A stretch of 64,000 bases of DNA, taken from positions 62,001 through 126,000 of the forward strand of contig JASLLL010000001.1 of assembly GCA_030747075.1 (NCBI GenBank), written 5' to 3'. Made by a program: the position numbers and the translations under genes. Shown here piece by piece: positions 46,093-62,260 of the stretch (positions are counted from its first letter, which is position 1; each line of letters begins with the position of its first letter). Source of the stretch: Gemmatimonadota bacterium. Lineage in GTDB: Bacteria; ARS69. The notes beneath the pieces were generated by a model. The model saw nothing but the letters and a program-made list of their open reading frames with translations. It searched no databases and was not told the origin of the DNA.

Positions 46093-48534
46093 CTACTCTG
46101 TCGAAGGAGGAGGGGCCCGCGCCTCGCGCCGGGCGTCCAGCACATCCGGATCTCCGCCCTTTTCCAGATAGAGGTCGAACAACGGGGCGGCCCCTTCGGG
46201 ATCTTCGAGGAGAAACTCCCGCACAAGCCCCTGTGTCAGGTAGGGTTCGGGATTGCTCGGATCGGCCCGAGAAGCCCTCTGAAGGCTCGCGTGCGCCTCC
46301 TCACCCTTGCCCAGCATGGCCTGCGTGCGCCCCAGATACAGGAACACCCCCGGGAGGCGCGGTTCCGCCTCCGCCGCGCGCAGAAAGGCGTCCTCCGCAC
46401 CCACCGCCTCTCCGGCCTCCAGCAGCAGCAGTCCCAGCCCGCGCGAGGCCTCCGGGCAGGCGTCTCCCCTCTCGAACAGCCTGCGATAAAGGTCGATGGC
46501 TGCCGCGACATTCCCCTTCAGCCGTGTCAGCTCCGCCAGGCGGTAATCCTCGTCGCTCTCGAAGCACCCGCCCGCTCCGGCTTCACGAAGTCGCCCCAAA
46601 TCCTCGATAAACAGCATGTAGCGTCCCATCTGGGCGCGTGCGGAGTCGTTGTGAGGTGCCTGCCAGCGGTCGTTGTACTCGCGGACCGCCAAGAACTCCC
46701 TGCGGGCTCCTTCCACATCTCCCAGCCAGAGAAGCTCCGCCCCCAGCGCGGAATGCCCGAGCAGGTAGCGAGGTTCCACGGCCACCGCCTGTCGAAGGGC
46801 TTCGGCCGCCTCTTCATGCCGCCCCAGTTCGGAGAGGATCACGCCCCGGTTGAACGGCGGGCGGTAGTAGTCGGGGTTGATCTCTTCCGCGCGGCGAATG
46901 TGCTCGAGCCCCTCCTCCAGTTGCCCCAGCCGCACCAGGTCCACTCCGAGATTCAGATGGCACTTGTCGTACTCGGGCTTCAGTTCGAGCGCGGATCGGT
47001 AGTGCTCCACGGCGGCCTCGTGGTCTCCTTCTCCGTCAGAGACGATGCCGTGCCGGTAGAGAATCTGCGCAATCCCCTTGCTTTCGTCCACGCCGTACAC
47101 ATTCGCGCTCATGAAGAGGCCGATCGCGACGGCACCCGCCACCGCACCCGCCCCCTTTGCCCAGGCCCGCGCCCGAGTCAGAGCGGCCAGTTCCACCAGC
47201 GCAACCCCCGCGAAGAGAACGAGCGCGGGCACAATGGGAAGCCGGTAGCGCGCCAGCACGAAGAAGACGATCACGCTTGCGGAGTAGAACCCCACGAAGA
47301 GGTAGGGCAGCATCCATCGGCGACGACGACGCCAGGACAGCACCATCCCCAGTACGGCCAGCGGCCCGAGCACCAGGAAGGTGAACGCCGGCCCTCCAAT
47401 GGCCCGGCTGAAGTGTCGGAAGTAGCCGAAGTGCTCGATCTGCGGGATCTCGTAGGTGGCCCAGAAGTGATACGCCTTCATGACCATGAGCGACATCCAA
47501 CGCGCCGGGTCCCCCCCGATTGTGCGCAGCGTCTCCTTCAGGTAGAAGTCGTTGACCTCGGTAAACGAGAGCCTCCGGCCCGTGACCTTCTCCGCCTCGG
47601 TCCGGCACTCCACATCCTTGTGCAGGTCCGCGACGATCTGCCTCGTGACGGCGTGCTCCCCGACACCTTCCGTGACGAACAGCACAGGAGTCTCGTGGCC
47701 ACCGCGTGCCATCGGGCCGTTGCCGATGTACAGGTTGAGTCCGCCGTTTGTCGTCAGGAGGGTGGGATCGTCGGTCCGTGCGTTGTGGATCGTTGCGGGG
47801 GAGATGGCAAGAAGCGTTCCCGCCGTCAGTACGAGTGCGCCGGGCAGGCCGCGCCGGAGATTCGCGAGTGCGGGCGAAAACTCCCGGCCCCACGCACATG
47901 CCAGCCAGAGGAACGCCGCGGGAGCAAAGAGCAGAATGTTCCCGCGACCCAGCGCATACACGCCCATGACGAACCCGGCGGCAAAGGCGTGCGACAGCGA
48001 CGACCGGCGGGCTGCATCGTGCAGCAGCAGCAGAAGGGAAGCTGCGAGGAAGACGGTGAGGGTCGGATAGAGAATCGAGGTGGAGTAGTAGATCAGCGGG
48101 CCGTAGAGCGCGACCATCGCGGAGCACGCCATCGCGAGATTCCGCCCGCCGAAACGGCGACCCAGACCGTGCGCCACCACCACGGTCGCGACGGAAAGCC
48201 CAATCTGCAGAAAGCGCACCATCCATAACCCTGGCCCGAAGAAGTAGTGCACCAGCGCGAGAAGGTGCGGATAGAGCGGCCCCATGAAGTACGGATCGCT
48301 TCGCTGAATCCCTCCCGCCAGAATGGCGCCCGCCCAGTCTTCGTAGTACTTCGAGTCCAGCCCCAGAAAGTCGAACCAGGAGTGCGCACGCATCGAGTGC
48401 CAGTGAATCAGCCGAAGCGCGGACGCCACCAGTACCGCGCCCCACAACCACGACCGTTCGAGGAGGCTCGTGGGCGAACGGTCCGCCGGGGAGGCTGTGG
48501 GCGGGTTTTGGGTCGCTTTACTGGTCACCGTCAT
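46093..48534 (-). CDS. GT-C membrane glycosyltransferase-like protein with long TPR domain
   Basis: 813 aa. Residues about 28-470 contain ten or so helices in GT39-like order, with an early acidic loop (FDFLGLDSKYYEDWAGAILA) and the shared motif LLTTNGGLNLYIGNG. Residues about 495-800 are TPR repeats (AAVEHYRSALELKPEYDKCH, HIRRAEEINPDYYRPPFNRG, ASLQRASRADPSNPEPYL). It is close in design to the 32982-34745 protein. Last gene of the nine-gene glyQ-led run, six nt after the YfhO-phosphodiesterase gene. Likely modifies an exported glycan, lipid or protein; the acceptor is unknown. Confidence 0.75.
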   Translation of the reverse strand: MTVTSKATQNPPTASPADRSPTSLLERSWLWGAVLVASALRLIHWHSMRAHSWFDFLGLDSKYYEDWAGAILAGGIQRSDPYFMGPLYPHLLALVHYFFGPGLWMVRFLQIGLSVATVVVAHGLGRRFGGRNLAMACSAMVALYGPLIYYSTSILYPTLTVFLAASLLLLLHDAARRSSLSHAFAAGFVMGVYALGRGNILLFAPAAFLWLACAWGREFSPALANLRRGLPGALVLTAGTLLAISPATIHNARTDDPTLLTTNGGLNLYIGNGPMARGGHETPVLFVTEGVGEHAVTRQIVADLHKDVECRTEAEKVTGRRLSFTEVNDFYLKETLRTIGGDPARWMSLMVMKAYHFWATYEIPQIEHFGYFRHFSRAIGGPAFTFLVLGPLAVLGMVLSWRRRRRWMLPYLFVGFYSASVIVFFVLARYRLPIVPALVLFAGVALVELAALTRARAWAKGAGAVAGAVAIGLFMSANVYGVDESKGIAQILYRHGIVSDGEGDHEAAVEHYRSALELKPEYDKCHLNLGVDLVRLGQLEEGLEHIRRAEEINPDYYRPPFNRGVILSELGRHEEAAEALRQAVAVEPRYLLGHSALGAELLWLGDVEGARREFLAVREYNDRWQAPHNDSARAQMGRYMLFIEDLGRLREAGAGGCFESDEDYRLAELTRLKGNVAAAIDLYRRLFERGDACPEASRGLGLLLLEAGEAVGAEDAFLRAAEAEPRLPGVFLYLGRTQAMLGKGEEAHASLQRASRADPSNPEPYLTQGLVREFLLEDPEGAAPLFDLYLEKGGDPDVLDARREARAPPPSTE

Positions 48535-48540
48535 GGCTCC

Positions 48541-61385: not shown

Positions 61386-62260
61386 GACGCAGCCCCCCCG
61401 GAAGGCGCGGCCGCTTCGCCGGAAGCGCGGGCGATCGCCAGTTTTGCGACACGCACCGCCAGCGCACGCACCCGCCCGATGTAGGCGGCGCGTTCCGTCA
61501 CGCTGATGGCGCCCCGCGCGTCGAGCACATTGAAGCAGTGCGACGACTTCAGCACGAAGTCGTACGCCGGATAGAGAAGCTCCGCGTCAAGCAGGCGCTT
61601 CGCCTCTCCCTCGAAATCCGAGAAGAGCCGGAAGTGGAGGTCCGTGTTCGCCTCTTCGAAGTTGTAGCGGGAGAAGTCCCGCTCTTTCGCGAGGTGGACA
61701 TCACCCCAGGTGAGCGTGTCGTTCCAGCGGATGTCACGGATGTGATCGACGCCCTGCACATACATGGCAATCCGCTCCAGCCCGTAGGTCAACTCCACGC
61801 TGATCGGGTCCAGTTCGATGCCGCCGACCTGCTGGAAGTAGGTGAACTGGGTGATCTCCATTCCGTCGAGCCAGACCTCCCAGCCGAGACCGGCCGCGCC
61901 GAGCGTGGGCGACTCCCAGTCGTCCTCGACGAAGCGGACATCGTGCCGCGACAGCGTGAGACCGATGGCGCCGAGGCTTTCCAGATAAGTGTCGAGCACA
62001 TCGTCGGGGGAAGGCTTCAGGATGACCTGGTACTGGTGGAACTCCTGCACGCGGTTGGGATTCTCGCCGTAGCGGCCGTCCTTCGGACGGCGGGACGGCT
62101 CCACAAATGCCACACGCCAGGGGTCCGGCCCGAGCGCGCGGAGGAATGTGTGCGGGTTGAAGGTGCCCGCGCCGACCTCGGTATTGACGGGTTGCGTGAG
62201 CACGCAGCCCTGCCCCTCCCAGAAGCGTTCGAGGCGAAGAATGATCTCCTGAAGTGTCAT
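61382..62260 (-). CDS. glyQ: Glycyl-tRNA synthetase alpha subunit
   Basis: 292 aa. The catalytic class II alpha subunit starts at ATG 62260 ([14 protein letters not shown]) after GGAGGAG. Signature blocks: [65 protein letters not shown] and [19 protein letters not shown]. It catalyses glycine activation and transfer together with GlyS. First gene of a nine-gene run on the minus strand. Confidence 0.97.

Follow-up and report, generated by a model that had tools for sequence, protein, structure and literature searches.

In the 64,000-nucleotide window analysed here (the whole stretch of contig JASLLL010000001.1 of a Gemmatimonadota bacterium, positions 62,001 to 126,000), the genes glyQ and glyS, encoding the subunits of glycyl-tRNA synthetase, head a minus-strand row of nine genes (62260-46093), the remaining genes of which, referred to below as the module, encode predicted phosphodiesterases, glycosyltransferases and a degenerate metallohydrolase-like protein. 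The link between glyQS and the module is real and old. By analogy with known systems, the conserved row probably encodes the synthesis of a lipid-phosphate sugar and the transfer of this sugar outside the membrane by glycosyltransferases of the GT-C type, with phosphodiesterases recycling the carrier. In the literature searched, no such tie, conserved in three phyla, was found to connect a universal enzyme of translation with a system of extracytoplasmic glycosylation; the link predicts surface-sugar genes in uncultured lineages and supplies a family of predicted cytosolic NPP-fold enzymes, the substrate of which may be polyprenyl-phosphate sugars.

Conservation was assessed in phyla A, B and C, groupings made by the search tool and represented by 5, 8 and 7 genomes, respectively; phylum A is that of the window, and phylum B includes a genome labelled 'Candidatus Eisenbacteria bacterium RS_13_32'. 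The genes glyQ-glyS followed by a shared core were found in all 20 genomes (5/5, 8/8 and 7/7), the row being split by contig ends in three of them (G001, G069 and G071). The core shared by the three phyla is represented by genes of a family 2 glycosyltransferase (GT2), one or two YfhO proteins, the phosphodiesterase pde2 and a GT-C protein with tetratricopeptide repeats (TPRs), without genes of DUF3604 and pde3, which no row examined outside phylum A contains. The adjacency of glyS and the module, seen in every one of the 20 genomes from the three phyla, is not due to chance, and an oddity private to one metagenome-assembled genome (MAG) is ruled out. The neighbourhood search, proposed by the sequence-only reading as its own refutation test, thus found the gene set conserved outside the window genome.

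In phylum A, genomes G002 and G004 contain all genes from glyQ through GT-C/TPR on a single contig; in G003 the row glyQ-glyS-pde1-DUF3604 runs up to the contig end, and in G001 glyQ, glyS and the start of pde1 are located on one contig and the remainder of pde1 onwards on another. Gene pde1 is absent between glyS and DUF3604 in G002, where a pde1-like gene follows GT-C/TPR instead. In phylum B, pde2 stands directly after glyQ-glyS in all eight genomes, two of which are split by contig ends within glyS; the order on long contigs is recO-glyQ-glyS-pde2-gt2-YfhO-GT-C-flippase-YfhO-GT-C/TPR-pde1, with the variant gt2-flippase-YfhO-GT-C/TPR in G060. In phylum C the order is recO-glyQ-glyS-gt2-YfhO-YfhO-pde2-GT-C-flippase-GT-C/TPR, recO being preceded by an MgtE gene in the one genome tested by Pfam; the contigs of G400 and G307 end early in the row. 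The distance from glyS to the next gene, with start codons picked automatically, is -4 nt in the window, G002, G003, G004 and G060, -1 nt in G066, G067, G068, G069, G070 and G072, +2 nt in G001, +15 nt in G307 and +19 nt in G170.

The order, strand and coordinates of the nine genes were confirmed in the window. As claimed by the sequence-only reading, the genes overlap or are separated by at most 35 nt: the distances in the 5'-3' direction are -4, -4, 35, 2, -8, -4, -4 and 6 nt, the 2-nt distance between the DUF3604-like gene and pde2 being counted from the GTG start at 56417. The promoter-like site before glyQ is the sole match of this kind upstream on the strand of the row, and the next one lies beyond gtc_tpr, which suggests that the following gene is a separate unit. 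Terminator-like sites in the window are close in number to expectation (16 found; shuffled mean 10.2, standard deviation 3.4), and none was listed in an intergenic gap. The absence of hairpins between the genes, also claimed earlier, holds only in part: a small G+C stem is present in the 35-nt gap, but it has no T-run and is thus not an intrinsic terminator. Neither a T-box nor another known RNA was detected in the window or the glyQ leader by Rfam search at the gathering score and at E up to 1. The nine genes, glyQS included, are probably transcribed as one unit. Similar G+C stems were also observed before the ribosome site of DUF3604 in G002 (L069 near 12600) and G003 (L073 near 900); in G002 the stem is retained although pde1 is missing at that place.

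Outside the three phyla, the link to glyQS was absent from a sample of 60 genomes, judged on listed contig positions, and in the pde2-bearing genomes with a glyQ match glyQ was located on other contigs. A close pde2 match was found in 24 of 336 genomes sampled around phylum B. The two nearest lineages, G029 and G064 (loci L247 and L248), contain recO-glyQ-glyS without the module; in the phylum of G029, 72 of the 80 genomes examined have glyQ, whereas this pde2 was not detected in any of the 80 (E up to 1e-60). In the tree of glyQ and glyS, phyla A, B and C together with G029 and G064 form one clade (100/98), and a topology constraining A, B and C together was not rejected (p-AU 0.63). Between phyla, identity is 43-47% for glyS, 48-51% for pde2, 61-64% for gt2 and 35-38% for gtc_tpr; on these sequence values the core proteins diverge alongside glyS. 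A single gain in the common ancestor with subsequent vertical inheritance is the simplest reading, while transfer of the whole block between lineages is still admitted. Genome G188 (L245) contains genes of a TPR protein, GT2, pde2 and YfhO in a row, with no glyQ match in that genome, indicating that the module can exist without glyQS.

Searches of the literature on glyQS with such a gene cluster returned nothing relevant, and no explanation of the pairing was found. By default, the link is explained by a shared housekeeping promoter and gene coupling. In its neutral form, which is compatible with the proposed glycosylation function and seems to us somewhat favoured, this explanation holds that the module was inserted behind glyS and retained via overlaps and a steady housekeeping promoter, with no tie to glycyl-tRNA. 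The unaccompanied recO-glyQ-glyS of L247 and L248, the distribution of glyQ and pde2 in the phylum of G029 and the cousin module in G188 are consistent with neutrality, as is the fact that no tRNA-dependent transferase domain was reported in the operon proteins scanned. Against it, a module gene follows glyS directly in each phylum, although the identity of this gene varies (pde1 or DUF3604, pde2, gt2); the order of the module was rearranged yet the connection to glyS remained unbroken, which suggests that the link itself was kept.

Functional coupling, in which the supply of glycyl-tRNA or a by-product of the synthetase would act on the module, for example via pde2, so that envelope glycosylation would follow translation capacity, appears unlikely. 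Aminoacyl-tRNA synthetases produce diadenosine polyphosphates, and clearance of such a by-product by pde2 might account for its placement with glyQS, since pde2 is predicted to be cytosolic and NPP structures solved with Ap4A or AMP (6f2y, 4lqy) are among the closest folds to it. This explanation would leave GT2, YfhO and GT-C in the row unexplained; besides, pde2 stands three genes beyond glyS in phylum C, occurs with YfhO and GT2 but without a glyQ match in G188, and in 74 other loci pde2-like genes have no glyQS within the stretch examined. Clearance of a synthetase by-product is accordingly considered very improbable. Envelope modification of the MprF/Fem type, dependent on aminoacyl-tRNA, was rejected: no tRNA-dependent aminoacyltransferase domain was found in the window operon or in the scanned proteins of phyla B and C, and in this comparison the PF03706 proteins match the membrane part only.

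The row likely encodes a glycosylation machine, as far as family matches can tell. The nearest solved structures for gt2 are ArnC (1.9e-20) and the dolichyl-phosphate mannose synthase (DPMS) of P. furiosus (5.3e-16), both matched over residues 11-230, which places gt2, by sequence, with polyprenyl-phosphate sugar synthases. Matches to PMT_2 and YfhO exceed the Pfam cut-offs in the window and in its relatives, where they reach 65.9 bits; a sequence search with YfhO against the PDB gave no match. In gtc_tpr the PMT_2 match covers residues 86-219 and the TPRs occupy residues of about 483-805; its structural model is of moderate quality (a predicted local distance difference test score, pLDDT, of 69), and the TPR half resembles OGT. 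The earlier assignment of GT2 and two GT-C proteins to the logic of polyprenyl-phosphate sugar transfer is thus supported by the ArnC/DPMS, PMT_2 and YfhO matches. In phyla B and C the operon itself contains a gene of a PF03706 flippase-like protein; elsewhere in the window's genome, six PF03706 matches exceed the cut-off.

Since GT2, a flippase and a GT-C enzyme (YfhO or PMT_2) constitute a documented multi-component logic (PMC8035078), the following scheme may be proposed. A cytosolic GT2 would load the sugar onto polyprenyl phosphate, and the lipid-phosphate sugar would be flipped by the PF03706 protein, operon-encoded in phyla B and C and perhaps encoded elsewhere in the window genome. The GT-C enzymes YfhO, PMT_2 and PMT_2-TPR would then use the sugar to modify acceptors on the outer side of the membrane; a lipid of the envelope or secreted proteins are more likely in this role than teichoic acid. 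Phosphodiesterases pde2 in the cytosol and pde1 and pde3, lipid-anchored outside, may hydrolyse phosphodiester intermediates, for example the lipid-phosphate sugar, with recycling of the carrier, while the glyQ promoter and tight coupling would tie the dosage of the system to growth.

Phosphodiesterase pde2 has neither a signal peptide nor a transmembrane segment. Across 22 sequences from a wide range of phyla, residues D11, D204, H208, D261, H262 and H458 are invariant and T50 nearly so; alignment with PhnA puts T50 at the position of the nucleophile. The AlphaFold2 model of pde2 (pLDDT 88.4; Foldseek 1.4e-16) was superimposed on ENPP3, ENPP1 and XaNPP with a VIA Z of ~27 and a root-mean-square deviation of 3.4-3.6 over about 350-360 aligned residues. 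According to this model, pde2 is a predicted NPP-fold member of the alkaline phosphatase (AlkP) superfamily, in which two metal sites and the position of the threonine nucleophile are kept. Tandem arrays of 3-6 pde2-like genes were also observed at L129, L113 and L110, on contigs of candidate division TA06 and Nitrospirae.

Lipoprotein signals are present in pde1 and in the pde3 of relatives, and motif inspection revealed serine at the nucleophile position in both. The three phosphodiesterases, one of them fused to YfhO, noted in the initial reading are indeed present in the window, but the fusion is private to the window genome, and pde3 occurs in rows of phylum A only. The fusion was ruled out as a hallmark of the system because in G001, G002 and G004 pde3 stands apart, as a lipoprotein gene of its own. 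The fusion junction keeps the lipobox ...VASVAACVVLPFLLGAC (...LLGAC), the Cys codon of which is located at 50022-50020; judging by this sequence, the fusion evidently arose by in-frame loss of the spacer and is a local accident. In G001, two similar secreted-protein genes are located in tandem between YfhO and pde3 (L071:7360-8570), and the one that was tested had no Pfam match. The 2.67 Mb genome G000 (L076) contains 39 PF01663 matches; among these loci is the segment G000:C2 126-131 kb, where a YfhO gene is accompanied by a pair of pde1-like genes.

The DUF3604-like protein of the window exceeds the Pfam cut-off of 20.4 bits, but reaches only 55.4 bits against the NCBIfam model CehA_McbA, compared with 96.8 for the G002 orthologue and a cut-off of 80. 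The first metal-binding histidine is replaced in all five operon copies, and the intact HxH/TDHD-type metal motif is absent: the window copy, in which most motif residues are gone, contains GDLSGV and TDSD, and the orthologues contain GDLNGH and mostly TDND. In sister genomes, either GDIHxH or GDLHWH is still present in some DUF3604 paralogues. From these substitutions, the operon protein is likely not catalytic. The DUF3604 profile gave no credible match in the PDB. The earlier description of a degenerate DUF3604 lipoprotein stands with respect to the lost residues and the predicted lipoprotein signal, not as a hallmark, the gene being limited to rows of phylum A.

The acceptor was previously supposed to be a phospho-glycan polymer; this was not supported, and protein O-glycosylation fits equally well. 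In the latter case, a narrower form of the scheme proposed above, GT2 would produce polyprenyl-phosphate hexose and GT-C/TPR would glycosylate exported proteins selected by its TPRs. The GT-C and TPR layout is that of the TMTC O-mannosyltransferases (PMC7801869), the TPR part of gtc_tpr is nearest to OGT and SPINDLY among natural proteins, gt2 matches DPMS and, weakly, PgfS, and modification of surface proteins has been described for the Pgf operon (PMC5856776). The TPR likeness is generic, though; the scores for PgfS (64.6 bits, cut-off 500) and PgfM2 (18.3, cut-off 1500) are low, and no TMTC-specific Pfam family was matched at E 0.001, so protein O-glycosylation is suggested tentatively, with somewhat less than an even chance. 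Decoration of a polymer or lipid of the envelope, such as O-antigen, lipid A or a phospho-glycan, whose phosphate groups external phosphodiesterases would trim or transfer, is possible but rather doubtful. It agrees with the glycosylation of lipoteichoic and wall teichoic acids by YfhO of Firmicutes (PMC8035078) and with the presence of two to three AlkP-superfamily enzymes per phylum A operon, of which two are predicted to be lipoproteins on the outside. The row contains no polymerase, ligase or phospho-polymer synthase, however; membership in the AlkP superfamily is silent on the substrate, and pde2, the phosphodiesterase found throughout the three phyla, is predicted to be cytosolic.

Several observations weigh against the proposed glycosylation system as a whole. 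Whereas CsbB and GtrB are membrane-anchored (PMC8035078 and, in part, general knowledge), gt2 lacks any membrane segment. The fold search with the gtc_tpr model matched the TPR part only, leaving the membrane fold unconfirmed, and no flippase was found in the window's own operon, the GtrA type not having been searched for. Between-phylum identity of YfhO and GT-C/TPR is only about 29-38%. The 20 genomes, MAGs among them, belong to related lineages and do not represent 20 independent events. No known case of an NPP-fold enzyme in such a pathway was found, and literature searches on COG3379 with glycosylation and on AlkP-superfamily enzymes with undecaprenyl phosphate (UndP) returned nothing relevant.

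Features of the row and its flanks are listed in the table. Elsewhere in the window (5107-10054), two adjacent large proteins with matches to glycogen-binding domains of the AMPK1_CBM type are encoded.

Table. Features of the glyQS-headed row in the window (RBS, ribosome-binding site; TM, transmembrane; ORF, open reading frame)
Feature	Coordinates	Strand	Evidence and remarks
Promoter-like site TTCCCA-16-TATACT	62287..62314	-	upstream of glyQ; consensus match alone, 9/12
glyQ, glycyl-tRNA synthetase alpha subunit	61382..62260	-	PF02091 5.6e-139; RBS-like sequence upstream of start
glyS, glycyl-tRNA synthetase beta subunit	59286..61385	-	PF02092 2.1e-187 and DALR_1; 4-nt overlap with glyQ
pde1, AlkP-superfamily phosphodiesterase, predicted lipoprotein	57958..59289	-	PF01663 1.3e-20; N-terminus ...LLFAAGC; 4-nt overlap with glyS
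Small G+C stem CGGCCcacgGGCCG	57935..57948	-	in 35-nt gap, directly before RBS of DUF3604-like gene
Degenerate metallohydrolase-like protein of the CehA/McbA (DUF3604) type, predicted lipoprotein	56420..57922	-	PF12228 34.2 bits
pde2, predicted cytosolic NPP-fold phosphodiesterase	54747..56417	-	PF01663 2.9e-38
gt2, polyprenyl-phosphate sugar synthase-like GT2	54026..54754	-	PF00535 1.6e-28
gtc1, PMT_2-type GT-C membrane glycosyltransferase	52470..54029	-	PF13231 ~52 bits; ~8 TM-like segments
YfhO part of YfhO-pde3 ORF	50074..52473	-	PF09586 31.5 bits, cut-off 28.5; ~10 TM-like segments; whole ORF 52473-48541
pde3 part of YfhO-pde3 ORF, AlkP-superfamily phosphodiesterase	48541..50073	-	PF01663 9.4e-28
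gtc_tpr, PMT_2-type GT-C with C-terminal TPR superhelix	46093..48534	-	PF13231 31 bits and TPR families
Promoter-like site TTGACA-18-TATAGT	45963..45992	-	beyond last gene; consensus match alone, 11/12

Among single proteins, the DUF3604-like protein resembles the PHP-like metallohydrolases CehA/McbA in the profile match and a C-terminal motif, but differs in the changed metal-binding histidine of all operon copies and in additional residues that the copy of the window has lost. Protein pde2 is similar to XaNPP and ENPP1-7 in predicted fold and active-site positions; in contrast to them, it is cytosolic, has a length of about 550 aa with extra segments, and shares 16-20% identity in the aligned part. 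With UshA (YqjL) of Bacillus subtilis (PMC11898649) it has in common the proposed role of freeing UndP from UndP-sugar; this is an analogy of role alone, as UshA resembles alpha-beta hydrolases and is unrelated to pde2.

Among whole pathways, the Pgf system of Streptococcus mutans (PgfS, PgfM1, PgfE, PgfM2; PMC5856776) likewise combines GT2 and a YfhO-like membrane transferase in one operon, but the window proteins score far under the Pgf family cut-offs, and no phosphodiesterases are named in the Pgf operon. Eukaryotic O-mannosylation by DPMS and TMTC1-4 (PMC7801869) is similar in the DPMS-like GT2 and the fusion of GT-C to TPRs, a likeness of architecture alone; the window system is bacterial, its membrane sequence is different, and no TMTC domain family was matched. 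Compared with the multi-component systems CsbB-GtcA-YfhO, GtlA-GtlB and GacI-GacK-GacL (PMC8035078), the row of the window, which is not from Firmicutes, is headed by glyQS, contains three GT-C proteins, one with TPRs, a soluble GT2 and phosphodiesterases predicted on both faces of the membrane, and has no flippase found in the row; what it shares with these systems is a GT2 lipid-phosphate sugar synthase together with a GT-C enzyme of the YfhO or PMT_2 type.

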